Assembly: GCF_020520425.1 (NCBI RefSeq)
Contig: NC_079491.1
Span: 4,761,143 to 4,825,142, forward strand
Source: Spinacia oleracea
Lineage: Eukaryota; Streptophyta; Magnoliopsida; Caryophyllales; Amaranthaceae
Reading direction: 5' to 3'
DNA length: 64,000 bases
Position numbers and translations under genes: made by a program. This document shows positions 2,680 to 48,386 of the stretch, piece by piece (the stretch's first letter is position 1; each line of letters begins with the position of its first letter). The notes beneath the pieces were generated by a model. The model searched no databases. It worked only from the letters and a program-made list of their open reading frames with translations, and was not told the DNA's origin.

Positions 2680-5040
2680 TTACATCAATCTCCGTCCCAA
2701 AACCCTGTCCAATTTCGCCACGTTGGCCACATTTTCTTCAAGTATTTTCTTCAACGTATTACGTTCGTCTAATTCCTTGAGGAGATTCAATCTTCGTTCC
2801 GCAGAGTGTGTTCTGCTTTCCTCCATTGAAGTGTTCGGATGAGATTCTGATCAATAAGAACTTAATAACAGTCAGTATAACATAAACTTCAGAAAGTGGA
2901 GAAGGGAATGGATGTAATCTAATCAAGCATCTGCAAACTATTCCAATTGTCACCTGCTTCCGCAACATGATTCATACCATTATTGACAGGAGGATTCTGA
3001 GTGGTTTGTTCCTGGTATTCAGGTTCACCAAATGAGGAAGAGGAAGTCCGAGAAGAACTGTCATTGCTATTTGAATCAGATTGTGTCATTCCATTCACAT
3101 CTTGCCAAGAAGAACTATCATTGCTACTTGAATCAGATTGTGTCGTTCCATCCTCATCATCACTTTACACAAATTAAACATCACATTAGTCCAAATTAGA
3201 GTGTTCTTTAAGATTGTCATATAAGGTTTTAGCAATATGTACGGTGAACGGTAGACAATAGCAGAAGAAGAAGTCACTTAGTATTTGCCACTTTATCAGC
3301 AAAATTATCATATGATTATGCAAATGTCAAAAAGTCATTTAAAATGAAGGGAAAACAATGTACTACCTCCGTTCCTAAAAGTTCTTTAGGCTTTCCGTTT
3401 TAGTCCGTTCCTGAAAGTTCTTTACACTCTACTTTATTCCATTTTTGCTCTCATTTAGCCCACCATAACTTACCCACTCACAATACTTTAATATTTATTT
3501 TTATCCACTCATATTGTTGGACAATTTGTAGCCTCTCATTTTCCCATTTGTTACCCTACCATCACATATTTACCAAATTCCTTAATTACCGTGCAAATAG
3601 TAAGCGTAAAGATCATTTAGGAACGAAGTTAGTATGTTTATATTCCCAATCAACAAACCCAAGATTTATTTACATATTAATTTTCCATTGATTGCTGACC
3701 AGGCAAGAACAAGACTTTAGTTTCAAGATCCTATAGAACAAACAATATGTCGAAACTGGAAAACAAACAAACATAATCATGTTGGATTTTGTAAACAAAT
3801 ATAAAAAGGCAACCAAGAAATTAACAAAAATAAATTAAAGGGCAATAACGAATTGATACAGAGTATACAGTTACCTATGAGATGATGATAGGAAAGAAGA
3901 CTTTTGAGCCTCAAAATATACCCATGGTTGGGGTGACAATAGCTGGAGTAATCCTATGTTTGTTGAAAATGGCTGGGGTACTTCAAGTTCTTTTCCTAGC
4001 ATGAAACAATAAATCATCTCCTCTTCTGAAAACCGCCAACCATTGCCAGAATTAGGAGGAAAAGCAGAGTTGGAGTAAACGATGCTGTTGTATAATTGAT
4101 TACCAGGAAATTTATCAACAGCAATAAAGAAGCTGCAGTATCTAGTCACAAACAGTACCTCATGATTCGGGAATCCCGAAACCTTAACCCATCTTCTGGA
4201 GTTATCGTCACACATATTTAACTCAAAAACATTGAAACCTCTTCTGGTTTGTTTTACCAAATAAAAAGTTCCAGTTGATGATACTGCCAACCGCTTCCTC
4301 CATCCTATGTTAGACTGTTCGAATTCAGAAACCGGACAATCAACAACTGTTTTTAGCAATCCTAATACGTCGTTAGACATTTGATAGAGTTTTCCCTGAG
4401 TATCTAAAACATAAATCACACCCCTAAAACACAGCATATCATCAAATTGGTTAACATTATTGTAAGACATGGTAAAACATGGTACATCCCATCCCTGTAA
4501 TTTAGTCCCAGTTGAAGGGTATCCCTGTAAACAACCCATACGGTTTAAATAAAACACCCAACATTGTTCCAAGCTCGGGACTGGCATAGACACGAAACAG
4601 GTTTTTCCATACACTTCGCAGGAGAGAGGTGATGTGCATCCATCTTCACACTCATCTCCATGGTCATATACCTGATGGTAGGCTTCAGCGAGACACGAGA
4701 AACGAAATTGACCCAAGTCAAGATTATCGGGAAGATTAGGGAGCGGTGTACCAAAAAAGGGGTGGCAGAATTGAGTCCTGCCATCAGGAGTTTTGACAGT
4801 GCTCACCATCCAAGGGTAAGAGCCGTTGTAAGTTTCAGGGGGGTGGATGAGATAGACAGAAGAAGAGAATATAGTGCACTTTGCTTCTTCTATACGGTAG
4901 GGTAAGAGGGCGGAGATAGTATTTGAGTGATGCCAATTCTTACACACAGCTTGAAAATTGTGCAAGTCGTTTGCGTCGCATTGAAGGAACATTGCGATTG
5001 TTCGGAGGGCTTGCAGTGGCAAATCTGCCCATCTTTTCAT
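2680..5040 (-). CDS. F-box/DUF295 protein with acidic linker and shortened coiled-coil tail (gene 1)
   Basis: Three-exon model: 5040-3875, 3162-2954 and 2846-2680, giving 513 residues with matching phases (2 then 1). Residues 5-40 (LPLQALRTIAMFL...VCKNWH) are an F-box, which in this family binds SKP1 in an SCF ubiquitin ligase. The rest of exon 1 is a DUF295 (KIB-type) domain with LPNLPDNLDLGQF and the CSFFIAVDKFPGNQLYNSIV signature. Exon 2 is a Ser/Asp-rich linker with repeated TQSDSSSNDSSS. Exon 3 keeps only the end of the tail seen in the paralogues (SAERRLNLLKELDE). The ancestral acceptor equivalent to the one at 36416 has changed from AG to GA, and an AG 13 bases upstream restores the frame. 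Intron 1 holds a MITE at 3363-3632. The F-box/DUF295 call is firm; use of exons 2-3 is inferred. Confidence 0.8.
3363..3632. mobile_element. MITE in intron 1 of gene 1
   Basis: Imperfect inverted ends (ctacctccgttcctaaaag; right end catttaggaacgaagttag) flanked by TA, with an internal gcaaatagtaagcgtaaag block near the right end that recurs in the MITEs at 17479 and 61031. Stowaway-like. Confidence 0.6.
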
Positions 5041-6928: not shown

Positions 6929-7500
6929 TTATGTTCCTTCTCCACTTAAAGGTATGTCCAAATCTTTTTGTGCAGATAAAGGAATCATCTTGGACAGATT
7001 CACCATATCTTCCTTCAGTTCCTTTTGCAACTCATCAAGTTTGGCCAATTCATCAAAGAGGTTTGATCTGCGTTCTGTGGCTTGCTCATTTAACTGTCTA
7101 AGCTTGTTGAGAGATTCTATTAGGGGCTTACTTTTGTGTAGTCCTACTGCCTTCTCAACGATGGGAACAAGCCAATCAACTTCAAAGCGCATACATTTCA
7201 AGTCAGACAACGCAGAGCTTAAATAGTCGGCTTGGCAGTCACTCAAGGACCTGGCTGTGTTAGCCTCAAGAATGAGTACCATAGTAGCAAGTGACTCTAG
7301 TGCTCTGCCAAAAAGAATGGAAGGAGAATATTCTTACTAGATCCCTATAACAGGGCTGAAGTGAAAATGATCAAATTAGCAGGATTTATTACCTGGTTCA
7401 TAGAGGTTATATATGCCCTAGATACACCATCCTGACAGCTTGGGATCGACTGGTTGCTTATTTTCACCCCCTTCCTTGCCAGCCTCCCTTCGGATGAAAA
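6929..7500 (-). pseudogene. Decayed tail exons of gene 2 (MATH-CC/PEARLI4-like module)
   Basis: 7304-6929 encodes ALESLATMVLILEAN, then FEVDWLVPIVEKAVGLHKSK and a coiled coil ending DIPLSGEGT. This matches the tails at 35810, 47196 and 33367. The piece at about 7500-7393 matches their preceding small exon (VSRAYITSMNQ, then a GT donor). The first third of the tail exon (VKFEG...GDLIAK in the paralogues) is missing, no linker exon was found, and the phase across the two pieces does not match. This looks like a remnant and not a translated exon of the F-box gene. Confidence 0.65.
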
Positions 7501-8203
7501 AAAAAACATGAAAAAGCTTCAAATTTGAGAACCCTTCTTTACAATACACACCCATGGGTTAATCATTAGAAATATCATTCAACCTGACTTCATAATAAGT
7601 ACTAGTATGACGATGCCACATGTAAGTTAATGCAGGAAAATAAACATCCATTTGTTTCTTATAGCACTACTTATTTAGTTAATATCCACCTACATCATTT
7701 CTCAAACTTCATATTTAGCCCAAGGCTCCTTACCACAGCAAGATATTTTATGCTCTTGCCGTATTAGACACTTAATTAGTTAATTTAGCAGCACGATGGT
7801 GATATTGCCTTTGATTAATGGAGAAAATGAAGCACACCACATTAACAGTTTAACAGAATAAACCATACTCCTAACTTATACTTTATACATGATAAGGTAG
7901 CAATATACAAAACGGTTTGAAAACAAAAAGGAATACATGGTAAACAATACAGTCGAGCAGATGTATCACAGTTACTTAACAGGTACACCTAAGAATAGAT
8001 CAGAGCATAGAACAAATGGATACACAGCAACAACAAAATCACAACAATATTGCCATCCAAGAAAATAAAATTATTGCAACACTAATCCACCGTTGTTGCC
8101 ATCTTATGGGAGATCATCAAATAGAAGCAACAGAAAATGATCAAAATGATGGGGAAACAGGACAACAATTTTAAGTATCCTGAAGTACACAAAACTAATA
8201 CCA

Positions 8204-9415
8204 CTATTTCTCTAACAAGTGCGCACAACCCACAGGACAAATATGTTTATTGACAAGATATATAGGAGTTAATAGATAATGACTACTGTTAATAAAACTG
8301 CTGATAATTATGTACCTCCTAAGTGATAGGGAGGCCTGTAAAACACATGATGGAGGTGACCAAAGATGAATAGGAAATCCCGGGTAAGATGAAATTGGCA
8401 TGAAAGCATGATTGTTTCCTCCAAGCTGGTAAATATAGATCCCTACCCCGTCTCTCGGGTAATTCAAATCAGTATTAGAATAAGCAGGGAAAGCATAATG
8501 TGAGAAGACAATACAGTTGCTCAATTGACAACCGGGAAAATCTTTAGCAGAGGCAAAAAAGCTGTAGTCTCTAGTGACAAACAGAACCAGATCATCTTTA
8601 TCCCCAAAGCTCTGAACCTCAACAAACTTCCAAGAACTCCATAACTTGTCACACAACTCATAAACCTTGAACATGTTCTTTCTCCTCACAACCAAGTACA
8701 GTTTCCTTATTAACAACGATGAAGGTGTCACGAGGCGCTTTCGATACCGCATTACATCTACATCCACCTCATCAAATGCACTGGCACTGAGTGTTTTAGA
8801 AACTGTAGACTTCTGTATAGAAAACTTGTACAGGTTTCCTTTCCAATCAATTGAATAAATGAAGCTGCAAAAATTTATAGAATCATCAATTTGTTCATTT
8901 GAACCTTCAACTATTTTCAACAATGGTAATCTAATTGTTCCGGGAACTTTGAATTTCAGTGAGGTCAGAAGTAATTTCTCCGGCCTGTATAGAGCCGATA
9001 AGTTATCGATTTCGCCGTAATCCGCCTTATGGTGGGACATGGAAAGGCGGGAGGTGTGAAATTGAGAAAAGTCAAGTTCTTTAGGGAGACTGATGAGAGG
9101 TGTACCAAAAAAAGGGTGGAAGAAGAGGGTAATACCGTTGGCGATTTGGACAACAGACACCATCCATGGGGTGGAGATAGAGGCTGAGCCACCACGGGGG
9201 CGGAGGAGGATGACGGAGGAAGATAACAAACCCTTGTGGACGGAAGTGGGCACGGAATAAGCAGTTGATTGGCGCCATTTCTTGCACACCGACCGGAAAC
9301 TGCGCAAGCTATCGATATCTGTTCCGAGGGATTTGGCGATTGATTGAAGCACTTGTTTCGGAAGATCTGACCAATTTAACCTCCGGCGAGGGCGAGTATG
9401 ACTACCGTTCGGCAT
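8204..9415 (-). CDS. F-box/DUF295 protein (gene 2)
   Basis: An F-box (residues 14-50: LNWSDLPKQVLQSIAKSLG...VCKKWRQ) is followed by a DUF295/KIB domain with HPFFGTPLISLPKELDFSQF, LFVTRDYSFFASAKDFPGCQ and a terminal PGFPIHLWSPPSCV. The family supplies the substrate-receptor subunit of SCF ubiquitin ligases; the partner is unknown. The conserved exon-1 donor lies at 8316 (AG/GTACAT, phase 2, as in the paralogues). If it is not used, the frame runs on to a stop at 8204, giving 403 residues. No linker exon is visible downstream and the tail is decayed, so the read-through or a short 3' exon is the likely end. The Met at 9415 is just upstream of the F-box. Confidence 0.8.
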   Translation of the reverse strand: MPNGSHTRPRRRLNWSDLPKQVLQSIAKSLGTDIDSLRSFRSVCKKWRQSTAYSVPTSVHKGLLSSSVILLRPRGGSASISTPWMVSVVQIANGITLFFHPFFGTPLISLPKELDFSQFHTSRLSMSHHKADYGEIDNLSALYRPEKLLLTSLKFKVPGTIRLPLLKIVEGSNEQIDDSINFCSFIYSIDWKGNLYKFSIQKSTVSKTLSASAFDEVDVDVMRYRKRLVTPSSLLIRKLYLVVRRKNMFKVYELCDKLWSSWKFVEVQSFGDKDDLVLFVTRDYSFFASAKDFPGCQLSNCIVFSHYAFPAYSNTDLNYPRDGVGIYIYQLGGNNHAFMPISSYPGFPIHLWSPPSCVLQASLSLRRYIIISSFINSSHYLLTPIYLVNKHICPVGCAHLLEK

Positions 9416-27510: not shown

Positions 27511-30500
27511 TCAGAACAGTCCATCCCCAAGGTATTTATCCGGATTCATTGGCAAACTCTCAGAAACTAACCTTATATCCCTATCCAGTTCTTTCTTCAT
27601 TTCAGCCATTTCCGCAAGGAACTTCTTCTCCGTCTCTTCTGCACTAGCCTTGGCCTTCTCAAGCTCCAACAAAGAAGCCTGCAATGGCTTGTTTTTGTGC
27701 ATTACCAAAGCTTTTTCAACAAAAGGAGTCAACCAATCTACTTTCAGCTGCATGCATTGAAGGTCAGATAAAGTCGAGTCAAGATAATCGCCTGATCATC
27801 AGTTAACGTCTTTCCAGAGTTGGTTTGGAGAATAAGAATTATCTTTGCTAAAGATGCAAATGCCATGGTTTTGGTATCACAACTACGTATCAAACTTCCT
27901 TCAACAATATCTCCATGCTTCATCCAAACATTTTGTAAAACAGGGAGGTGATTAGACTCGACATCTAGTCCTTGAAACTTGAAGGTAACAACTCTGTTTA
28001 CAGAAGCCTGCACAAGACCATGAAAACATTGTTGTATACTCGATTACTCGTAGGTATATGCTTCATGATTTCTCAGGAAATGAAGTTAAAAAAACCGGGA
28101 AATAAGACAAATTAGGCTTGATTTTGAAACTTCCCTGTATATTAGACCTTTTTTCTCTCATTCAAACCTTTGTTTTCGTTGCCGGCAAACAACAAATCAA
28201 TTCATTGAAAAGAAAGAAATCTATTATTTACCAGTAGACGCCTACAGGTCCACAATCAGTGACCTTGGGTCATGGGGAAAGAAAACCAGATGAATCTATG
28301 TGGATACAAATGACTGTAGAAATATGAGTTTAAATTGAGCCTCACTTTGAATTGAAAATTATTAGAACTTAGGAGACGCAGGAAGAAAATACACCACATT
28401 GACTCGCGCCATGAATCACCAATTAAACTCCTACTATTACCTGAACCAAATGCTCCGTGTTATCTGTCTGAACAATGGCATCATCTAAGTTCCCGGTCAC
28501 CAAAGCTACCAAACAAGACATAAAATCCAAATTAGAAAAGATTGCAAAAATCCAATTTTAGGTAGGAGAAAAGGTGTAAGCCCAATAGAAAACAAACTCA
28601 GTATTCGCACAACAAAAAGAAAACAGAAACCTTATCTCTAGCCTTAGAATAGCTATTCATGTTATTAAGAATGAATAAAAAGGGAAAAGTTGCGGTTTGA
28701 TAACAGATACTACTCCAATAGTTACCTTCTTCTGCAGCATGCTCCATATCATTCACTACAGGTAGAGATCTTGTAGTTTGTGCTTGAGCAGCTCTAGTAG
28801 AAAGAGTTTCAGTGGTTTGTTCCTCGCTTTCAGACTCAGAATTATATTCCTCCTCTTCACTCGCAGAAGAATATTCCTCCTCTTCCCTCTCAGAATAATA
28901 TCGTTGTATCATTTCAACCTCCTCAAATGCACTTCACAAACAAACATCACAGAGTCAAGATTTGAGTACTCTTCTTTAAGCACAAGGAAAAAGATTTCTA
29001 CTTGACATCACAAAAGAAGGGGGTTTTCTGTCCCGAGTAAAGTTCCTATTCCTTTTTCTAGTAATCCAAAATTTCCATCTATCCTCACACTATCAGCTTT
29101 TATTTGCTGGGTTCAATTCAAAACTAGTTGATGTAGAAGGAATACATGTACATAATTTTGAGACATCCATTTTTGTGTTGTTCATGATTGATTAATGTGG
29201 CCATGTGGGTCATAACCTAGAAAACCGATCATAACACATGCCAACACAATAATGAAGTACAAGCTCCCAAATAAGGGGATATAAGTCTTTCCAAATAAAT
29301 TATGCAACGGGAAGACATGAAAATCAATTAGATACTGAAATTGACATTTAGCACCATAATTGATTTATGTGGATAAGAACCAAGAAAACCAATATATCCC
29401 ATGCTAGTACACTATTTTGAAGTGTAAGCTCCCAAATAAGATCATAATAAGAATTTGCAATGCGGGACTTAAGTTCAGCAAAATCTGTAAGCAATTTTAC
29501 AGACATGGTTGACAAAAAATATTTTCAGTGAAAAATGACTTTTCATGGAAAACATTCTTCAAGAATAAACACAATTCCAAACTAGTTTTCCTTTGTTTGG
29601 CTTACAAGAAAAGTCATACAAAAAAGGTAAATGAAAGTGGATGGGTGAGGATTGATGGGAACAGAGAAGAGGGGGGTTATAAGGAGGAAAAGTGGTCTTC
29701 TTTTCTTTACAATGGAAATTTTTTTCCACCTTTGAAGAGTTATTCTCCTACATATATTAGAAAATTGTTTTCCACCCCTTTCCATAATAAATAAAGCAAA
29801 CTAATTGATAAAGGGATAAAAACATTTTACACCAAACCACACACTCCCCAAATGCAATATTGGAGAAAAAAAATAGCAGAGAACTAAATCCAATATCTCT
29901 GTACTTCAGGAATTGGAGATAAGTGGTTAAAACATGAGAATGAGAATAAAATATAGTAAGAACCTACTCGAATTAACCTTTCTATGGAAAAAATTCAGGT
30001 GCCTGACAGTTCTTAGCATCGATCATTCAAATTTTCAAATTCCACAACAGCAATTTAAATGAAGGGGACAACAAAGTATGTTTGTATTCCCAAGAATACC
30101 AACATCGAACCACAATCACCATGCATCACACAGTGCATTCCGCCCTGCCATACATCAGAGTAGTCTCTTTTACTACAGTTACAGCCACATAGTAATGTTC
30201 ATTAGACTCAATACTATATAGAAATGAAACCCAAGATGAAGTTTAAGTTTATCGCAAGATTGGAGTAGTGACATTCTTAATATATTCGTGGTATGTCTTG
30301 GCACTTGCATTATTGATTTAGTGAGTTTTCGTGGCTAGATAGGGAGATAATTTTGGAATATTAGTACTAGAAGACTACTAGAAATACAAATTTTTCAAGG
30401 ACTTACTCAAAGAGAGATGAAAAAGTTAATAAAATTGCATACTAGTATTATACACAGTCTCCTGTAATTATTTACCTTTGAGCCTGAGATTGCAAAGGAG

Positions 30501-31716
30501 AAGAAACACTCTGCGAAACCCAAGGTGGAGGAGACCACAACATCAATGGAAAGCCTGGAAAACATTCAATAGGCAGACTGTAATGACCTTGTTCACTCAA
30601 CGAGTAAATTGCAGCCTTATTTCCAGCTTTGCTTTCATAATTCCAACCAGATTCAGGTTTATAATCCAAATAGGAAGGAAATGCGTCGTCTGAGAAGACA
30701 ATACAGTCCTTAAGTTGACATCCAGGGAATTCCTTTGCCCCAACAAAGAAGCAGTAATCTCTAGTGACAAACAGCACCTGATCAGCATCCCCAAAACTCG
30801 TCACCTCAACCCAAACAAAGTTAGATAGTCTCTTACCCCTATGCTCGATCTCGTAAACTTTAAATTGCAGATTAATAGCCCCCATTGGTCCTCCGCCATG
30901 TCCATCCACGGGCACAATCATGTAAAGTTTCTCTTCTGATGATGATATCCTTGTTGCCAAACGCTTCCATCGCCCTACTTTCAGCTTACCACAAAAGTGA
31001 CAATCAACGAAAGTCAAACAGAAATGTGATATATCCACCCAACAAGATGAGTTCAGGCTCCCTTGCTTATCTATTCCATAGGTCCTCCCCTTATACCTTA
31101 TAACGTCATCGGCATGTAGGCAAGAGTCCTTTTGTTGTTGTTTATACTTCGAAAATGGTCGCGATTTGTGTGTTCGACCACCATCAGATAAAGTCAACAT
31201 GGTACAATAGCGAAACGAAGGAGTAAATCGTTCACCCGTATAACACATCACCACTTTGATGTACAAAGAGAATAGATTATGGTCATTGTCATTGTCATTG
31301 TCATTGTCATTGTCGTCGTAGACGACATGGTAACCGGTGGTGAGCTGGGTGGATTGAAAATGGCCTAAATCTAGGTTTTGGGGAAGATCAGAAAGGGGAG
31401 TTCGGGAGAAAGGGTGGAAGAATTGGAAGACGCCTTTGGTAACCTCAACAGCGAGGACCATCCATGGCGGGAAATGCAGAGCATCAGGCGGGCGTAGAAG
31501 GAGGATGGAGGAGGAAATTACCTTTTGAGGGACATCGGAAATGATACGGTGGGGTAAGAAGGCGGAAATTAGGGTTGAGCGCCGCCATTCTTTGCACACT
31601 GCCCGGAATTTTTGCAAATCCTTTACTTTGGAGATGAATTGGGCGATTAATTGAACTGTTTCGGAGGGAAGATCAGACCAACTTACTCTACGACGATGAT
31701 TACTCTGCATCTCCAT
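27511..31716 (-). CDS. F-box/DUF295 - acidic linker - MATH-CC/PEARLI4-like tail chimera (gene 3)
   Basis: Exons 31716-30477 (read to 30476, phase 2), 28931-28726, 28505-28441 and 28007-27511 have consistent phases. The F-box is residues 10-50 (VSWSDLPSETVQLIAQFIS...VCKEWRR). DUF295 follows, with RTPLSDLPQNLDLGHF, VLFVTRDYCFFVGAKEFPGC and a terminal PGFPLMLWSPPPWV. Exon 2 is Glu/Ser-rich (SASEEEEYNSESESEEQ). Exon 4 carries the tail: VTFKFQGLDVESNHLPVLQN, IVEGSLIRS, SLAKIILIL, LKVDWLTPFVEKALVMHKNK and a coiled coil. One base is missing near 27797 (between TDDQA and YLDSTLSDL), so about 80 final residues are out of frame unless this is a sequencing error; restored, the product is about 669 residues. 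The F-box and linker parts are intact. It is probably an SCF adaptor of unknown target. Confidence 0.75.
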
Positions 31717-33366: not shown

Positions 33367-34812
33367 TCAGAAAGGTAGGTGAAAATCCATACTAGACAAC
33401 TTAGTCAACTCTTCATCTAGTTTGGCTATTTTATTCAGCAGGTTTGATCTTTGTTCCTTCATTGTTGCATTAGTTTTGTGTAGTTCTAAAGCCTTCTCAA
33501 CACAAGGGACTAACCACTCTACTTGAAAACGCACGCATTTTAGGTCAGACAATGCGGACTTCAGATAATCAGCATGGAAATCACTCAATGATTGGGGTGA
33601 GTTTTCCTCAAGGATGAGTATCATAGTTGCTACTTGCTAGAGACTCAAGTAACCTTGCTATGTTGTCACCATTAGATATCAAGCTATTTTCTACAATGTT
33701 CCCATGCTTCGACCAAATCTTTTGCAGTGTTGGGAATAAATTAGGCCTTATATTCATCCCTTCAAATTTGACTGTTGAAGCATCGTTATTTTTGTCTTCC
33801 TGCATATCAAGGTGAATGATCGAAATTAAGGGCCCTTTAAAGCGGGTTTCTGTAGTAAACAAACAAATGTGATGAAAACAAGATTTTTTTTTTTTTTTTT
33901 TTGAGGGATGAAAACAAGATACTTGATGTTGTTTATGTTAATTAAATACCTTAGCTGAGGATGTTATATATGCCCTTGAAAATGACGGCAGGATTTCCTC
34001 CCTTGGAAGCTGCCGGTCAGATGCTGCTGCTTATATATTGGAGTACATGTTGCAGCAAGCAACAACAGCAACAACAAACACAGCAACAAGCACAAGGATC
34101 AGTTGCTCACAACTCTTGTAGCTAGACTACTAAGCATTGAAGATTATGATACACAGATTGCTGACATGTCTCATCAATACACAGATTGATGAGCTGTACA
34201 AAGGTTGTTACAGTTTGTAAGAGTTAGTTATAACTAACTCAGTTGTAATCAGTTGTAGTTAGTTGTAGTTACAAGCTTGCACTCTTAGTATAAATACTTT
34301 CATAGATAGTCAGTAGTTTGTAACATAAACTCTCTGATTCTTCAATCAATAAAAGCTCTCCTTATTCTTTTCTCTCTAAATTCGAAGTTCTGTTTCAGAA
34401 CTTCTTCATTATATAATAACAAAGACAACCCAAATCATTGATATGGAAGTACATACTCCATAGATATGGAAGTACGGTTAGATTAGATGTCATGACAAAT
34501 ATTGCAAATCGCTAATTACCTTGCACATCAACTTCAGGGTTTGAGTGATAAATCTGACGATGTATGGGTTGAAAACGAAATCTAACATCATTGAGAACGG
34601 ATCTCTCCTTGAGTTGTTTCTTACACTTCCTGTCTTCCTTCACCATTAAACATCAAATAAGACTCAATTAGAATTTAGAATACAGTAAGACTGCAATACT
34701 TATATGGAGGGAAAAAACAAAACAAAAAATCTCTCAAGTACTCTTTTTTTCTTATTCTTACCTCCTGCAGTTTGTAGAACATATCAGCAATATCATCAGT
34801 ATCTTCTTCCAT
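33367..34812 (-). pseudogene. Tail-only gene without F-box (gene 4), probably decayed
   Basis: 34812-34762 encodes MEEDTDDIADMFYKLQE before a GTAAG donor. 34637-34520 encodes EDRKCKKQLKERSVLNDVRF, then QPIHRQIYHSNPEVDVQ. An exon ending at 33950 encodes SRAYITSSAK. 33799-33367 holds the tail (STVKFEGMNIRPNLFPTLQK, HGNIVENSLIS, then FQVEWLVPCVEKALELHK and a coiled coil). A 7-bp near-duplication (agtagca) at about 33630 shifts the frame within LESLA/TMILILEEN, and the acceptor of the third exon cannot be placed in phase. A solo LTR sits in the intron between exons 2 and 3. The N-terminus is unlike the F-box members, so the tail also exists as, or came from, a separate gene. Function unknown. Confidence 0.6.
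34036..34408. mobile_element. Solo LTR, Copia-like
   Basis: A 373-bp block starting tattggagtacatgttgcag and ending gaacttcttca, flanked by the 5-bp repeat ttata (34031-34035 and 34409-34413). It contains a TATA-like agtataaatac and an aataaaagctc polyadenylation-like word in the order expected for an LTR. There is no internal region, so it is a solo LTR left by recombination. Fossil in an intron of gene 4. Confidence 0.65.
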
Positions 34813-35809: not shown

Positions 35810-38800
35810 TCACGGCAATCCCCCTCCTAGAAGTTGGTCCAAATCTACATTTCCGTTAAAAGGAAGCTTCCAAATTTGAAAGGCTAACTCTTCAAGAAGC
35901 TTCAATCTTTTTTCCGCAGTTTGTGCCCGGATTTGGCCAAGTTTGTGCAGTTCTATAGCGTTTTCCACACAAGGAACAAGCCAGTCTACTTTGAAATGGA
36001 AACATCTCAGGTCGGATAATGTAGAGCCCAACTTATCGACTTGGCAATCATTCAATGATCTGACCGAATTGCCCTCCAGAATGAGTATCACATTTGCCAA
36101 TGACTCTAACGCCTTGGCAATCAAGTCACCACTACGGATGATGCTATTTTCCACTATGTTTCCATGTCTGGACCACACGTTTTGCAATACTGGGACTAAA
36201 CTAGACCTTATATCAAATCCTTCAAATTTTACTGTCAAGTTATCACTTCTGTTGCTCTGTAAAAGATGGAACATAATGGACAAATTGAGCTAGGTATTGT
36301 TGTAAAAGGATATGAAAAGGTTTAGACAAGTGTGCAATTCAGTTTAGTACCTGATTTGCTGAGATTATACAAGCCCGAGACACGGCGTGAGTTCTGCTTT
36401 CCTCCCTTAAATTATCTGGATGAGTTATGATCAACAAGAACAGTCAGAAGACTAAGAAAAGCTTACACTTCAAAAAGTTGAATTGTTTAAATGACAACTA
36501 ATTACAAAAGTTTACCTTCCTTGACTTCAGACACCATTTCATTCATGGTAGGAGTTCTTGTGATTTCTACTCGGGCTTCAGCCATAGAGGGCATCTCAAT
36601 GGCTTGTTCAACGACTTTGTGTACAAAACCACCTTGGCGTAGTTCCTCTAAGTTCCGTGTCTCAAAAGCTAGTCAGCAAATAGTTATCCCAATATTAGAA
36701 AGCTGATAAGTAAAATCCAAATTGTACCACAAAAAAAGTGACACCACCTGAAGGAAACACCGAAACAATCTTCAGCATGAATTACGAGGCTTACACCATT
36801 AAAAATCCATATTCTACCAGAAAAAGATGTAATGCTTTCATTCCCAATAGAGGAACTGACACCAACATGATTGTTGCATCGGAAATTGTTCATGCCATGA
36901 AGGGTCGAAAGGGGAAAAAAGGGTGGTTTGCCTTTAAAATTGACTTAGAGAAGGCTTATGATAAATTGGAGTGGGATTTCATAAGAAATTGCATGATTAA
37001 TATGGGTTTTGATGAGGATTCTGTGAAGTTAGTCATGAACTGTCTGTCCACTTCCTCCTCCTCCATAATAATCAATGGTAAGCCTTCCCCAAACTTTCTT
37101 CCTTCACGGGGAATAAGGCAAGGGGATCCTCTCTCCCCTTACATTTTCACCTTGTGTATGGAATGGCTATCCAAGCTTATCCATCAAGAGTGCGAAGAAG
37201 GTTTTTGGACACCTTTTACATTGGGGAGGGGGGCCCTTTCCATATCCCACCTCCTTTTTGCGGATGACCTTATTTTATTTGGTGAGGCAAATAAGGGAAC
37301 CCTTGAGTCAATGATCAATACCCTTGATTTATTTGGTAATGTGTCAGGTCAGACTAAAACTTTGAAAAAAGTAAGCTTGTTTTTCCTCCGAATACTCATC
37401 CTGCCATCATCACCACTTTTAAGGATAAGCTTAACTGCAAGTCCACTCCAGATCTGTGCACGTACCTTGGCTTCCCCCTTCTTCACAAAAAACCAAATAA
37501 AACCAGTTGGCCTTTATAGTTGATAACGTGAGGGGTAAACTACCAGCCTGGAAAACAATTTTTCTCTCTAAAGAGGGTAGGGGTTTGGGCTGCCTCATTA
37601 AATCTTCCCTTGCCTCTATTCCTTCCTACTATATGTCCTGCCTCCCAAATTTACAAAGAATTCCATTGCTGCCAATTTTCTTTGGGAATCGCCCACTTCC
37701 ACCCCTCATCTTATTTCCTAGGAATCCATCTGCAAACCTACTTGGGCTGGAGGATTGGGAATTAGAAATTTGGAGCACACAAATAGGTTGATGTTTTTGA
37801 AGATGTGTTGGAAAATTGTGAACTTCTCAGAAAACTTGGCCTCTAAAATTATGCGATATAAAAATATTGTAAGAAGAGCCATCCCAACTAGCTTCAAAAA
37901 GGAATTTTTTATGTGGAAAGAATTAGGGAAAGTTTGGGAGGATTTTCAAGAGTTCTTCGAAATGGGTAATTGGGGATGGAGCAACAATTTCTTTTTGGGA
38001 GGACAATTGCATGCGCTGATTTTAGGTCTTTACGGTCTCAAGTGGAGGGTCCCTTATCCCAGACAGACATGCTTCTTACTGTGAAAGATTGTATTAGCCA
38101 CTCTAGTTGGAACCTTCCTCCTCTAAGCCTTACTCTACCTCCAACTGTTATCCGCCAAATTATGACTTCGCACATTCCCTTGCTCCATTGCCAAGATCTT
38201 TCTATCTCTAAATTTGTTCACAAAGGGAAATTCTTGTTCAAAAAAGCTTCCTCTGACCTTTTTACAAACAACTTCAATGAGGATGTCAAAATCTCTTCGG
38301 TTTGGAAAGCGCAAACTCTCCCAAAAATACGTTTCTTTATGTGGCAGTGCTGGAAAGAAAAACAGGTTACCTTCAAACTTGAACGTGGCAAATAAGAATA
38401 TAACCCCCTCCCCTGCATGCCCTTTCTGTCCGGGAGTAAACGAGTCAGCAATCCATATTCTTCTTCACTGTGTGAGAAGCTGAGAGCTAAGGAGGTGTGG
38501 GACAAAATCTCACAAAAATCAACCCTAACCTTTGTTACTAACCATGAATGGTTGGTGGGAAATTCGGAGAACTCTTCTGTCCATGAGTCCATGCCTTGGT
38601 GTGTTAGGTTTCCCTTTGTTACGTGGTACATATGGAAGAGAAGAAATGAGTGGGTGTTTGAGAGAAAATATGAAAGTAGATACGTGTTTGAAGCTTAGTA
38701 GTGATGCGGCTAGGGAGTGGTTGACAAATCAACCGTGCCCTGCAAACCGTGGGCCTGCTTGTCCCCTTACTAGTAACTTGGTTAATTGGTTGTCCTCTTG

Positions 38801-41800
38801 GGAAAGTGAACCTTGGGTAGCAGGGGTAGTTATTGTAGCTAGAGATGAGCATGAAAACTGGATTGCAGGTGCAACTCAAAAGCGGATCACTCCATCAGCA
38901 ATGGTGGCAGAATTGTATGGCATCAGATTGAGCCTAAAAGTCGCAAGGAGGAAGGATGGGACCATATTATAGTGGCCTCGGATTGCAAGCAAGCTGTACA
39001 TCTGATTACCCAAAAAGAAAACTTGGGGGATGACTTAGCTAACATTGTACTTGGTTGCAGGGAACTGAAGCAAGCCTTTTCAAGGATGCACCTTTGGTAC
39101 GAGGGTAGGAGAACAAACCAACTGGCAGAGTTCATGGTAAAAAGAGCTAGGGAAGAAAACACAGAACTTAATGGTTTTATCATATTACGGAACCCTGATA
39201 TATTTTGTAGACCTTTGAATGAATGAAGAAGAACTTCACAAGTGTAATAGAGAAAATGGGTCTGTAACGTAAATGGCTCTCACTAGTAGCGAACTTATCT
39301 TTGAACTCTTGTATTATTTGCTTTAATTTTATCTAGTCAGTCTGCCCTTCACTACCAAAAAAAAAGTATCTGAAACTAATCCAATAGTTACCTTCAACTG
39401 CAACATGCTCCTTATCGATCACGAGAGAAGGAGATCTTGTAGTTTCTGATTGAGCTGCTGTGATAGCAAAAATCTTAGTGGTTTGTTCCCTGCATCCAGA
39501 TCCAAATGAGGCAAGGGCTACCTCCTTTTGCAAAGATTGTACCCCTTCATCTTTCTCGTGCTCACTTCACATACAAACATCACATAAGTCTAAATTAATT
39601 TAAGTACTCTTCTTCAGATTATCCAGGCATGTAGTTTACTGACATTTAAAAAAATAACAATAATAATTTACTAAGTCTAATTCTGAGATTATAGGTGTCA
39701 TTTCTTTGATGTTCTTGGTATATCCCATAGGCAGACCAGACTAGGAGGCAGTTTTGGAATAAAAACACAGATCAAGAATTACTCTATAAGACAGTAACCC
39801 ATCTAGATAACAAAGGCACTGTTCTCCTCAACCTATTTTAACAAGTACTTCGTATAAGGTTAAATAAGTTCATATAAGTTGTATAACTTTACAAGTATAA
39901 AAACATGCCAGACCATCGCAACACATTATTTATGTATAGATTAACAATAATAAAAATAACAGCATGCGCCCATGAATTTTTCAAACACCAACTGCCCATT
40001 TTAACCACAAAATCCAATCCATACTTGTTCATTAAAAGATCAGTAATAGTATCATCCGTGAGTTCCTATGCATTTCAATTTGAAAGTTTCCACATTTCCT
40101 AAAACCTAAATTTGAATTTGTATTTACTTGTTTTCATTTCTAAGTTTTCACATTCCATTTCCGGGCAACATATATCACATTTTACAAGTGTAACATTAGT
40201 ACTTCTACTCCAAATAGAAAACCACAAGGCTTTCAAGTGTAGAAACAATCTCAAAATGAGGAAAAACTGTGCATGTTAAAATATCAGGAATAGAAAATCA
40301 TTGATGATTAATATTACTAAAAGATCGCATACCTGTGAGATTGAGACTGCTCCATATCAGTCATGGCAGGTGGAGATCTTGTAGTTTGTGCTTGAGCGGC
40401 ATTGGTTGAAATCTCAGTGGTTTGTACCTCTTGCGAAGATGCACTGTCTTCATTAAAGGAATCAGATTGTATCATTTCATCCTCGCATTCAGGGTCAGAA
40501 GCAGCAGAGGACGCCTCCTCTTGCAAAGATGCTCTATCTTCATTATTGGAATCAGAGTGTATCATTTCATCCTCTTCAGCCTCACTTCACAAACAAACAC
40601 CACAAAAGTCCAAATTTAATCACAACCATGGGGTGAAATATAGAAGAAGATTTCTACTTGGCATCATTAAAGAAAATTTCTTGCATGACAAAGTGAGTGG
40701 CCTGTCCCGAAATCAAAATCCAATTGCTTCACGTAGTAGTACGCATTTTACATTTGCTTTTGCACCATTCACAAATAGTTCATATAAGCTAAGTTCAAGC
40801 AAAACAATATCTAAGGATAAAAATAAGTTCACAAATTAGTTGACTATTTCACGGGCAAAAGTTATGCTTGAAAATTTGTAGCATTTGATAATTCAAATAC
40901 CTAGGTATTTTAAACTAAGGGGAAAGCAATGTTTGTATTCCTAATCAAGAAGCCCCAAGAAGGCAAGAACCACTGAATATGCCATAAAAACTAGCAAGAA
41001 TGCCAAGAAAAAATCACAACCACTACACAATGCATATTCTACCCTACCATACAACTGGCAAGCAAAATAATTCTGTTTTACAATCATTAGTCATTACAGG
41101 GGAACAAAATAATGTTGATTAGTACATAGAAATTAAACCCCCGAGGAATGATAAATTTGTTTCCAAGATTGGACTAGTGGCATTGGTCAAATAATCTTGC
41201 CATCTTGGTATATCTAGGAGTATTTTTTATATTTATTATTAAACAAGGAGACGGTTTTGAAATAAGAACACCCATACCTTGATTTAATCTCGATGATATA
41301 CTCTGTATAGACAAACAAGATTACTAAATAGAAAGATAATTTTTTCCCATATTGGAACAAGTCTGATGTTTGAAAGTTGTTTTGGTCTGTAGCTATGAAG
41401 CAAGATAAACTTTAGATCAACTGATTGCATGAATACTAAACAAGAAAGGAGATATTTGGACTACGAGTATCCTGATGGCTTATCATGGGCATTCAAGAAA
41501 AATCTAGATCTGATGTCAAAAAAAAAATCTAGGGAGCAGAGGACTTTTCACTGGCTCACTGCTCAACGTGGCTTACAAGTCTGCGTGTCCTTAATTCAGC
41601 TAGTCCCAACTCCAAAGAGTGTCCTTATCATATGCTTAGCTGTACTGAATAGGCTAACCACTAATGATAGGATGGTGATAAACTTTGAGTCTGATCTGCA
41701 ATGTGAACTATGTGGGTCTGCGTGGGAGTCATTGCAACATCTTTAATTTCAATGTAATTGTTCAACGAAAATATGGAAGGGTATTCTAAATATTCTACAT

Positions 41801-44800
41801 ATACAGTGAGGTCAGTGAAATGTCCTTCCATCCATTACTAAGATATCCTGGAAGGAGATAAGCCTGCACGAAAACTAATATGACTGGCACGGCCTATGGA
41901 ATGTGCTTGAGTGAAGGCGTGAAGCTGTGTATGCCATACGGCTAAAAGGAGATAGGAAAGTGTTTAAAGATGCCTGTAGTGAAGTGAAGACCCTGCAAAG
42001 TCCTTATGTCTATAGTTTTTAAGGCAGCTTGTTGAAGTTCTAGAAGTGTTAGAAATCTGCTTAAATTCCTGCATTGCATGTTTAAACAACAAACTGACGT
42101 GTGCCAAGTGAGGCCCTAATGCAAAAGCAATGCCTAACCATCACAACACATAATTTATGAATATTGAATAGATGAACAATAATGCCCGTGATTTTTCAAC
42201 AGAAACTGCCCATTTCACCACAAATCCAAACAACAATACTTGTTTTATTAAAAGATCAGTAATATTATCATCCCGGAAGTTCCTCTGCATTTCAATTTGA
42301 AAGTATCCACCTTTCCTAAAACCTAAAATTGTATTTGTGTTTACTTGTTTCTGGCATTTCGTTTCAGTGCAACATAGAACACATTTTACAAGTGCAACAT
42401 TAGTACTTTCTACTTCAAATAGAAAACAGAACTCTATAAGGCTTTCAAATGTGGAAACAATCTCAAAATGCGGAACTGTACATGTTAAAATAACAGGGAT
42501 AACAGGAATAGAAGATCATTGATGTTTAATACTACTACAAATTACATACCTATGAGATTGAGATTGCTCCATATCATTTATGACAGGAGATCTTGTAGTT
42601 TGTGCTTGAGCAGCATTGGTTGAAATAACCTCAGTGGTTTGTTCCTGGCATTCAGCTTCAGAGGCAGCAGAGGATGCTTCCTCTTGCGAAGATGCTTCAT
42701 TACTGGAATCATATTGCAACTTTTCATCTTCGTTAGCCTCACTTCTACAAATAAACACCACATAAGTCCAAATTTAAGCACGAACATGGCGTGAAATTTA
42801 GCATAAGAAAAAAGATTTCTACTTGACATCATATAAGGAACATTTCCTACACGTCCAGTGAGAGTGGCCTGTCCCGGAAACAAAATCCAATTGCTTTATA
42901 TAGTAATCCACATTTTGCATTTGCTTTTGAACCATCGACCTTTTTGTCTGGACTGATTTCAATACTCAATGACTTGGAAGGTATGCAAGTACATCAATTA
43001 GAAATGTTATTTTGTATCTGTTAGTAATTGATATAAAAACCATTTAAACCAAGCATGTCCAATGCTAACAAACAAAAAGAACACCCATCTATCCCATCCT
43101 AAGTCCTAACACATAATACTGAAGTACAAGCTTCCAAATAAAACCTTACAAAAAACCTCCATTGCAATCCTTGAATTTTAACAATAGAAATTTGTAAGAA
43201 AAGTTATAGACATCAAAAGATCGAAGAAGCGTGCCAAGGGAGATAAAGGAGGAATGCATAAAGTGGCGAAAAATGACATTCTAATCGAGTACTTATGGAG
43301 TCAGGATCAGTATTGGTTAAAAAAAAGGGGTGGACAGGGAATGTAGTAAGAACCCACTTATTAGATATTCTATTGTAAGCATTTGATCATTCAAGTTCCA
43401 AAGAAGCCATTTGAAATCACAGAATATAGCATAAAAACAAGCAAGAAAGAACTCACAAGTCCACCACAATACCACAACGATATTGTGCCCTGCCTTGCAA
43501 CTGGTAAGCAGAGTAAATATGATTTACAACAATTATAGGGCACAAAATAATGCTTACCCACAAAGAATAAGAATTTAGTTTAGAGGCATGGTTCTAATTA
43601 ATGCTCTTGGTATATCAAAGGGGGAAATTTTAAGTTTTCCTAACTGGATATACAAGGATTAATTTGAAGATTTTCTAACTAGATTAGACTGATGGCATGG
43701 TTTTTAATGATCTATGAAAACACATAAATTGATACAATCTCGAATATATGGTAACTGAACAAGATAAAATAATTGGAACATAAATTTGGCAACCCTTACC
43801 TTTGAGATTGAGATGGCTAAGGAGATGGTGCATTCTGCAGAACCCAAGGTGGGGGAGACCACAACATCACAGGGAAACCAGGATAACATTCAATAGGCAG
43901 ACTGTAAAGATATTCTCCACCTAATTCGAAAACTGCAACCTTATATTTAGCTAACTGTACAGATTTAGCTAAATATAACTGAGTGAAAGCATCATCTGAG
44001 AACACAATACAGTTCCTGAGTTGACAACCATGGAATTCAGCAGCAGGAACAAAAAAAGAGTGATGTTTGAAGACAAACAACACCTGATCACCAACCCCAA
44101 AACTCTTAACCTCAGTCCAACAACTAAAACCATCTGTATTACACAGCTTGTAAACTTTAAAATGCATTTTAATTGACCCTGCTGGCCCTTGAACACGTCC
44201 ATTCATAGCTACAACAATGTAGAGATTTTCATCAGAGGGTGATCGCATTACCACAAACCGCTTCCGTAGTTTGCTTTTAGGACAATTTAACCGAAGTTCA
44301 TCGAAATCAAATCTTTCATACTTCCTGTATGAGAGAAGTGCACCTTGATTATCTAAAGCGTAGGTCTTCCCCTTGTACCGTGTAATATCATTGATAACTA
44401 TAATCTTCTTGTGATTGTGATTAAACGCCTTACTGAAATACGGGGAGAGATGAAATGGCAGTGCTCTGAACACTTTACCCCTTGATAAAGCCACTAGAAT
44501 GCAGTTGCGGGTGTTAGCAATACATCGATCAAAGAAAATCACCACTTTGTCATACACAAAAGAACGAAAATGGAAGAAATCGTCACCATGGTCGTCACCG
44601 GCGACGATGTGGTATTCTTTGGCTAGTGGAGTAGACTTATAACGGGATAAATCGAAATTATCTGGGAAATTAGGGATTCGAGTTCTGGAGATAGGGTTGA
44701 ACAATTGGGTGGCGCCGCCGGTAGCCTCCACAGAGAGAACCATCCAGGCGGGTGAATTAGGGCTATTAAGTGGACGGAGGAGAGAGACAGAGGAGGAGAA

Positions 44801-44998
44801 GATCGTTGAGTGTACCGAGGAAATACGGCGGGGTAACAAGGCTGAAATGTGGGTGGCGCGCCACCATTTCGTGCAAACCCCTCGGAAACTTTGCACATCT
44901 TTGCATCTTAATCTGAGGAAGTAGGCGATCAATTGAACTACGTTGGTTGGTAGATCGGACCAGCTCACACAATGACGCTGACTACTCTGTATCTCCAT
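35810..44998 (-). CDS. Intact seven-exon F-box/DUF295 - triple acidic linker - MATH-CC/PEARLI4-like tail chimera (gene 5)
   Basis: Exons: 44998-43800, 42741-42550, 40584-40333, 39564-39392, 36668-36516, 36415-36351 and 36256-35810. All have GT/AG borders and matching phases, 2481 nt, 826 residues, no stop. The F-box is about residues 11-50 (VSWSDLPTNVVQLIAYFL...VCTKWWR). DUF295 runs to about 395 and ends PGFPVMLWSPPPWV. Residues 400-605 are three related linker exons (QEEASSAAS, EQTTE, AAQAQTTRSP). The tail at 679-826 has LTVKFEGFDIRSSLVPVLQN, ENSIIRSGDLIAKALESLAN, FKVDWLVPCVENAIELHK and a short coiled coil, ending DQLLGGGLP. The start at 44998 is chosen because MEIQSSQ aligns with gene 3; an in-frame Met at 45124 exists upstream. 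A LINE fills intron 4. Probably a substrate receptor of an SCF ligase; target unknown. Confidence 0.8.
36725..39367 (+). mobile_element. 5'-truncated L1-type LINE in intron 4 of gene 5
   Basis: The reverse transcriptase region at 36820-37350 has AFIPNR, FKIDLEKAYDKLEWDF, GIRQGDPLSPYIF and the catalytic FADD in LLFADDLILF. Then come a zinc-binding (zf-RVT) region at about 38300-38480 and an RNase H domain at about 38790-39226 (AGVVIVARD, AELYGIRLSLK, VASDCKQAV), as in plant L1 elements. The frame breaks at several points (near 37365, 37510, 37770, 38390 and 38950), the endonuclease part is missing, and the element is dead. It lies opposite to the gene. taccacaaaaaaagt (36725) and taccaaaaaaaaagt (39353) at its edges are a probable target duplication that merges with the short poly(A). 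Confidence 0.9.
39900..42920. repeat. Tandem duplication of a linker exon with its introns
   Basis: 39900-40800 and 42120-42920 match throughout. Both have aaaagatcagtaatat/gtatcatcc and gcatttcaatttgaaagt in the intron 3' of the exon, the linker exon itself (40333-40584; 42550-42741), and gtggcctgtcccg and aaatccaattgcttt upstream. A LINE fragment (41420-42020) lies between them. The exon is phase 2 at both ends, so duplication keeps the frame. Confidence 0.8.
41420..42020 (+). mobile_element. LINE fragment (zf-RVT part)
   Basis: FHWLTAQRGL, then PKSVLIICLAVLNRLTTNDR and CELCGSAWESLQHL, match the zinc-binding module between reverse transcriptase and RNase H of plant L1 elements. Stops follow soon after. 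It lies in intron 2 of gene 5. Confidence 0.6.
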
Positions 44999-47195: not shown

Positions 47196-48386
47196 TCATG
47201 GCAATCCCCCTCCAAGAATTTGGTCCAAATCTACATCTCCATTAAAAGGAAGCTTCCTTGAAACATTTTCCATATCTTCTTGCAAAGTTTTCTCCAATTT
47301 ATCAAGTTCGTCCAACTCTCCAAGAAGCTTCAATCTTCTTTCTGCAGCTTGTGATCTGGTTTGGCCAAGCTTGTTCAGAGAATACAACAATGGCTTACTC
47401 TTGTGCAGTTCTATAGTCTTTTCAACACAAGGAACAAGCCAGTCTACTTTGAAACGAATACAACTCAGGTCAGACAATGTAGCGCTCAAATAATCGATTT
47501 GGCAATCATTCAATGATCTGACAGAGTTACCCTTCAGAATAAGTATCACATTTGCTAATGACTCTAATGCCTTGGCAATCAAGTCACCATTGCGGATGAT
47601 GCTATTCTCCACTATGTTTCCATGTATTGACCATATGTTTTGCAAAATTGGGAGTAAATCAGACCTTATATCGAATCCTTCGAATTTTACTTCCAATTTA
47701 TCACTTCTACCCCTCTGTCAAAAATGAACAAACATAATGGCTATATTGAGCTAGCTAGAGGTCTTGTAGTGAAAAGGATATATGATCATAACAAAAAGGC
47801 TAAGAACACTGCAGTTCATTTTAATACCTGATTTACTGAGGTTATATAAGCCGTAGACACGGACACGGTGTGAGTTCCGCTGTCCTCCCTTACATTCTCT
47901 AGATGAGTTATGATCAACAAGAACAGTACGTTAGCAAGATTGAATTCTGTTACACTTCAAAAGATAGAATTTTCTCTGAAAATTAACTACAAAAGTTTAC
48001 CTTCCTTGACTTCAGCCTCCATTTCATTCATGATAGTAATTCTGGTGATTCCTGCTTGAACTTGTGCCACAGAGGGCATTTCAATGGTTTGTTCCACACC
48101 TTTGTGTACCAAAAACCTAAAACAGCCAATTCCAAACAGTACACTGGTCACTCTCTTCTAATAGAGCTTTGAGCTTCTCAAACCCCTCCAAATCGGCCTG
48201 TAATGGCTTGCTTTTATGCATTATCAAAGCTTTTTCAACACAAGGAGCCAACCAATCTACGCCGGCAACCCCTGGACGAATTGGGGGGATTTTTATGGGA
48301 AGAGGAGAAGGATATTCCAAAATCGACTGACGACGCCGTTTTATTCCGATTGGTTCAATACCTCCGTTGACTAAATATAGCGCCAA
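47196..48386 (-). CDS. Tail-only MATH-CC/PEARLI4-like gene (gene 6), 5' end uncertain
   Basis: Three 3' exons are in good phase: about 48107-48001 (HKGVEQTIEMPSVAQ...EAEVKE), 47898-47828 (NVREDSGTHTVSVSTAYITS) and 47714-47196. The last encodes the most complete tail in the window, about 170 residues: KLEVKFEGFDIRSDLLPILQ, SIHGNIVENSIIRNGDLIAK, FKVDWLVPCVEKTIELHKSK and a heptad-like coiled coil to DQILGGGLP. Upstream, a frame from 48386 joins an unrelated 42-residue start (MALYLVNGGIEPIGIKRRRQ) to a second tail piece, VDWLAPCVEKALIMHKSKPL, most like gene 3, then stops at 48117. No F-box is present. The 5' part looks like a rearranged junction; the 3' exons look sound. Confidence 0.6.

Follow-up and report, generated by a model that had tools for sequence, protein, structure and literature searches.

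An array of spinach F-box/KIB1-4 genes with PEARLI-4-type tails: candidate substrate adaptors with re-paired heads and tails

The 64,000-base stretch of Spinacia oleracea DNA analyzed here (C5:4761143-4825142, hereafter the window) sits inside a tandem array of genes in which an F-box/KIB1-4 head (KIB1-4 being DUF295, PF03478) is followed by a PEARLI-4 (PF05278) tail. Across the array we find both kinds of domain in a phased exon order, members that are open from head to tail, a tail under purifying selection, and heads and tails that have been re-paired with one another. The explanation we favor, and hold to be reasonably probable, is that the array encodes substrate adaptors of the SKP1-cullin-F-box (SCF) type, combining a variable KIB1-4 propeller with a constrained PEARLI-4 helical tail. 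An initial annotation of the window had already described F-box/DUF295 heads fused, across phased exons, to a tail of the PEARLI-4 type; this holds as a multicopy architecture with open members, although not for gene 1 (44998-35810, minus strand), the copy that was noted first.

Profile searches covered the whole genome of 894,210,420 bases in 242 contigs, and the loci found lie on six of these (C1 to C6, 115-189 Mb each). KIB1-4 gave at least 152 matches, and PEARLI-4 gave 111 at E<=10, of which 38 are above the profile cut-off. Among the KIB1-4 matches listed, at least 22 of the 28 array-type PEARLI-4 sites have a same-strand KIB1-4 match no more than 9 kb upstream (a lower count, as the head of L045 is not among the matches listed), and at least 20 of the 27 array-type sites on C5 lie no more than 3.6 kb downstream of such a match; random placement on C5 gave a mean of 2.4 and a maximum of 9 head-tail neighbors in 2000 draws. 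Adjacency alone could be explained by tandem duplication of a neighboring pair, and 26 units were therefore examined individually (20 loci, the four window genes, a copy on C6, and L060/L028), with gene models made from genomic DNA by a purpose-written script. F-box proteins are named among the expanded families in passages of the spinach Monoe-Viroflay assembly paper (PMC8668906).

An open path from the F-box/KIB1-4 propeller through the linker to PEARLI-4 is present in 13 of the 26 units (L039, L041, L042, L043, L044, L048, L049, L051, L054, L056, L057, L058, and the C6 copy), with lengths of 573-791 aa. Specifically, i) all 13 open units have a phase-2 donor at exon 1, as do 16 of the 18 modeled units plus genes 1 and 3; ii) the real linker region scores above all 25 shuffles in 11 of the 13 open units; iii) of 19 tail pieces, 16 have no Met before residue 18 (17 if the truncated tail of gene 4 is set aside), and most tails therefore need upstream exons for whole translation; and iv) the open head-linker-tail unit on C6 is complete. 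No long head frame was found in L040, L050, L052, L055, or L060, and no tail frame in L053. A G immediately before the stop at exon-1 ends was considered as donor evidence and discarded as too weak (13 of 21 array heads vs 3 of 9 other heads); L063, a control head in that comparison, has a downstream tail match at C5:5271696.

KIB1-4 was matched in all 18 array heads, F-box-like in 13 and F-box in 12 of them (E<=0.01), and PF05278 in 18 of 19 tails at the same threshold; the KIB1-4 matches of genes 1 and 2 exceed the profile cut-off. In a profile comparison the array tails align over 86 columns with seven stand-alone PEARLI-4 rows of this genome (probability 98.4%, E 4e-15), which belong to proteins with other N-termini; in the tail tree the 19 array-type tails form a group apart from these seven (support 100/99), consistent with one origin of array-type tails. 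An AlphaFold model of the L042 tail (mean predicted local distance difference test score, pLDDT, 87.1) has five helices, the last spanning 51 residues (107-157), and the weaker model of the L042 head (mean pLDDT 67.6) places helices at 62-93 ahead of strands, a predicted layout as would be expected of an F-box plus a beta domain.

Pairwise counting over 19 units (171 pairs) put the ratio of nonsynonymous to synonymous differences (pN/pS) below 1 in both head and tail for all 171 pairs. Among pairs with dS<2, the median ratio of the corresponding substitution rates (dN/dS) is 0.34 for the tail (82 pairs) and 0.52 for the head (111 pairs), and for 5 of 12 hand-picked near pairs, 475 or more of the 500 codon resamples gave a higher dN/dS for the head than for the tail. 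Judged by these codon comparisons, the tail is under purifying selection and, given its lower median and the resampling of near pairs, looks to be the more constrained part at the protein level. Trees and dN/dS left out L040, L050, L052, L055, L060, L053, and gene 3, and took in L045, L046, L047, and genes 1, 2, and 4 though these are not clean; in dN/dS, the gene 2 tail is represented by its last 78 residues only, and the L046 head is partial.

Head and tail trees place several units differently. By head, genes 1 and 2 are sisters (100/99), whereas by tail gene 1 falls with L046, gene 4, L042, and L045 (92/91) and gene 2 with L043 and L047 (95/92); the head of L039 groups with those of L043 and L046, its tail with those of L041 and L044. 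Seven approximately unbiased (AU) tests, on clades picked after the trees had been seen, reject groups taken from one tree when these are tested on the data of the other (p 6e-5 to 1e-29). The two trees agree for near relatives (L042/L045/gene 4, L054/L056/C6, L041/L044, and L051/L057). Alignment indicates that gene 1 is itself a mosaic, in which a gene-2-type head and linkers are followed by a tail of the type found in a tail-only unit near 48 kb: i) from the head through the linkers to 39372, gene 1 is 69-88% like gene 2 DNA in matched stretches; ii) from 36628 to 35686, it is 74% like the 48-kb tail-only unit; iii) fine alignment places the main junction inside exon 5, at about 36640-36628; and iv) the gene-2-like side of this junction scores 63, vs a shuffled maximum of 43 (n=500). 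The intron stretch after linker exons 2 and 3 is 74-76% like the surroundings of the L045 exon-1 end, which also points to exchange close to the donor; since these stretches lie in the linker part, exchange was not confined to one point. From the conflict between the trees together with the gene 1 mosaic, we conclude that heads and tails have been re-paired within the array.

Gene 1 had been described as running without a stop through seven correctly phased exons, from an F-box and DUF295 head into its tail. The exon structure could be rebuilt as described (seven exons, GT/AG borders, matching phases 2,2,2,1,1,0; 827 codons including the last stop, or an 826-residue model), and the PEARLI4-like tail was borne out by the profile check (49.6 bits in the last exon vs a cut-off of 29.9). 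The frame, however, is interrupted by an in-frame TAG at 43819-43817, codon 394 of exon 1, which rules out gene 1 as an open fusion; the aligned codon of gene 2 is TTG. The single good exon-1 donor, at 43799 (AAG/GTAAGG), lies downstream of this TAG, and the other GTs within 43920-43790 are by eye in poor contexts. Because no good donor precedes the TAG, gene 1 as assembled is predicted to yield at most a 393-residue head. A route round the TAG proposed by a gene finder was rejected, as it needed both excision of the propeller end and read-through of long interspersed nuclear element (LINE) sequence. As for the head itself, the DUF295 assignment stands, but no Pfam F-box match was found in it at E<=1.

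For the array, we envisage, in line with what is established for F-box proteins, that one transcript would span head and tail, that the F-box would bind SKP1/ASK with ubiquitination following, and that the faster-evolving KIB1-4 beta-propeller would bind the target. The helical PEARLI-4 domain, whose end is a long helix, would probably self-associate or dock a partner, and might thereby multimerize the adaptor or link it to a common partner, with the propeller as the variable part; most simply, the tail would be an assembly or docking module common to many adaptors.

Several points weigh against this explanation. Half of the units examined (13 of 26) have no clean open path, and these include gene 1, the first-noted copy, which is stopped by its TAG and also lacks an F-box match; F-box-like is unmatched in 5 of the 18 array heads. 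Among the open units, L041, L044, and L048 are weaker models, and the modeled tails of L049 and L057 begin inside the PEARLI-4 core. Openness alone is little proof, because shuffling of the region between head and tail still gave an open path in 325 of 325 trials, and L049 and L054 (2 of 13) did not beat their own shuffles. A Met is present at residue 8 of the tail piece in L048 and gene 4. A long-branch warning on the tail tree weakens the single-origin reading, and no solved structure related to the tail was found by sequence (best E 0.067) or by fold (best Foldseek E 1.0), so that multimerization is suggested by the helices alone. Finally, the head-tail fusion is a prediction from genomic DNA, and conflict between head and tail trees would be expected also if heads and tails were separate genes.

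Such an arrangement of separate, alternating genes, in which F-box/KIB proteins would stop close to the exon-1 donor and translation of a separate linker-plus-tail protein would begin at an in-frame ATG of the linker, is in our judgment unlikely. In addition to the tree conflict, it would account for the tail-only copies at 33.8 kb and 47.7 kb and for in-frame Met codons in the linkers of genes 1 and 2, but it sits poorly with the recurrent phase-2 exon-1 donor, with the lack of an early Met in 16 of 19 tail exons, and with the finding of an open head-linker-tail unit on C6 as well. We think it quite improbable that the array is mostly genomic drift, a set of duplicated F-box fusions with little function, many of them dead, the fusion being a historical accident: the pN/pS values below 1 in both parts of every pair and the lower median dN/dS of the tail argue otherwise, even though half of the units have no clean open path, lesions or missing heads affect genes 1 and 2 and both tail-only copies, and plant F-box expansions have been interpreted as drift before, according to the excerpted text of PMC3030570. 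The initial annotation had further suggested that the adaptor may direct ubiquitination in RTM-like or stress pathways; a role of the tail in antiviral ubiquitination of the RTM3 type we reject as very improbable, since the kinship is one of domains only and nothing ties the array to an RTM-like pathway or to potyviruses: an exon-wise search of the genome gave 2 MATH matches, one each on C1 and C3 and both away from the PEARLI-4 sites listed, and there is none among the Pfam matches of the 18 array heads. PEARLI-4 itself has a published connection to the MATH class of RTM3: passages of PMC3664471 report a PEARLI-4 domain in some Class-IV MATH proteins and place RTM3 in Class IV. RTM3, which combines MATH with a coiled coil, interacts with itself, and the coiled coil could be the part that mediates interaction (PMC3377653, in part).

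The candidate adaptors of the array can be compared with four known systems. With proteins of the KIB1-4/SKIP23/AMR1 type they share an F-box and KIB1-4 (DUF295), held in the array in one large first exon. To our knowledge, the known F-box-DUF295 members of this type end after the propeller, whereas the array genes continue through a linker into a PEARLI-4 tail. SKIP23 and AMR1 are named as F-box-DUF295 proteins in passages of PMC7583174, which also list SKIP23 as induced in nematode-resistant beet, only a lead for our purposes. The array tails belong with the PEARLI-4 family by profile, but differ from its stand-alone members in this genome in the N-termini and tree group described above; in Arabidopsis, PEARLI-4 proteins such as AT4G38550 and AT2G20960 appear among the phosphopeptides of a mitogen-activated protein kinase (MAPK) study (PMC4202796, in part), again only a lead. 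Class-IV MATH proteins, like the array, pair PEARLI-4 with another interaction domain, the array having F-box and propeller in place of MATH. Caenorhabditis and zebrafish F-box genes with captured domains are likewise multicopy families that gained a domain, but those domains are transposon-derived according to PMC12062965, whereas the array has a plant domain, PEARLI-4, that has been re-paired among its members. In the open-licence literature, F-box plus PEARLI-4 in one protein is named in no title or abstract start that we found, and a pattern search outside this genome gave 42 matching stretches in prokaryote contigs, with no relatives among them.

The other units of the window are collected with gene 1 in Table 1. 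Gene 2 (31716-27511) had been credited with the same order as gene 1; its exons are indeed in phase, the phase being kept across three exons, but the tail exon is frameshifted, and a shorter open path exists only if the PEARLI-4 core is skipped. Gene 3 (given as 5040-2680) is, as proposed, a shortened version with an open frame of head, linker, and short coiled end, but it lacks the PEARLI-4 core. Gene 4 was absent from the initial annotation; its tail lacks the first part of the PEARLI-4 core, and its model has no linker. The tail-only unit near 48 kb is itself a composite, carrying at 48260-48123 a tail fragment that resembles gene 2 (108 of 136 nt identical). The LINE remains in gene 1 intron 4 also match zf-RVT (6e-4, under its cut-off), have their domains in separate frames, and adjoin the mosaic junction. 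Stretches containing linker exons 2 and 3 of gene 1 (42962-42291 and 40765-40074, minus strand) match the same stretches of other units.

Table 1. Coordinates of array units and associated features in the window (positions within the window).
Feature	Position	Strand	Evidence or remark
Gene 1 exon 1, F-box-like N-terminus + KIB1-4 (DUF295) propeller	43800..44998	-	PF03478 E 9e-22
In-frame TAG, gene 1 exon 1, codon 394	43817..43819	-	17 nt upstream of exon-1 donor
Gene 1 linker exon 2, Ser/Glu/Gln rich	42550..42741	-	rebuilt model; phase 2-2
Gene 1 linker exon 3, resembles linker exon 2	40333..40584	-	model and alignment
Gene 1 linker exon 4; gene-2-like stretch runs on to 39372	39392..39564	-	model and alignment
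Remains of LINE-type reverse transcriptase/RNase H in intron 4 of gene 1, antisense to it	36714..39226	+	RVT_1 E 1e-21, RVT_3 1e-8
Gene 1 exon 5, chimeric: 5' end gene-2-exon-3-like, remainder like 48-kb tail unit	36516..36668	-	alignment
Gene 1 exon 6, 65 nt	36351..36415	-	rebuilt model
Gene 1 exon 7, PEARLI-4-type tail	35810..36256	-	PF05278 E 5e-13
Gene 2 exon 1, F-box-like + KIB1-4	30476..31716	-	PF03478 2e-13; F-box-like 5e-5, just below its cut-off
Gene 2 linker exon	28726..28931	-	rebuilt model
Gene 2 exon 3, 65 nt	28441..28505	-	rebuilt model
Gene 2 tail exon, frameshift inside PEARLI-4 core	27511..28007	-	frame change, then TGA before KVDWL
Gene 3, open over 513 aa and without PEARLI-4 core: head at 5040-3875, linker at 3162-2954, short coiled end at 2846-2681	2681..5040	-	
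Gene 4: head 9415-8316, tail 7304-6929	6929..9415	-	gene model
Tail-only copy, split across two frames	33370..33800	-	alignment to gene 1 tail
Tail-only unit resembling exons 5-7 of gene 1, with its open tail exon at 47714-47205	47200..48260	-	alignment

Beyond the window, the search for PEARLI-4 brought up three further observations. At C5:4679840 and C5:4694839, tail and head matches of equal score lie 14,999 bases apart, either a recent segmental duplication or an assembly duplicate. A tail match at C3:159239328-159239648 is 68% identical to the L058 tail on another chromosome, and has no head nearby among the KIB1-4 matches listed. Ten dispersed, near-identical PEARLI-4 open reading frames of about 296-301 aa (L009-L018, on C1, C2, C3, C5, and C6; L015 has one TAG) make up a set of which nine are 98.0-99.9% like L010 over 2-3.6 kb, with tandem repeats of about 159 bp after the L010 frame; to judge by these features, the set resembles a mobile element with a PEARLI-4 gene as cargo.

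Should the fusion proteins indeed be produced, spinach would have a set of ubiquitin-ligase adaptors that share a C-terminal module more conserved than the part that binds the target, and the role of PEARLI-4 in an adaptor, a domain for which we know of no established molecular role, would become testable. It is possible, if rather doubtful, that the array is a reassorting recognition system in which recombination combines varied F-box/propeller heads with a small number of conserved PEARLI-4 tails; were this so, one tail-defined assembly or pathway would gain new target specificities, as in plant immune-receptor diversification. The re-pairing of modules inside a tandem F-box array may point to a source of new specificities.

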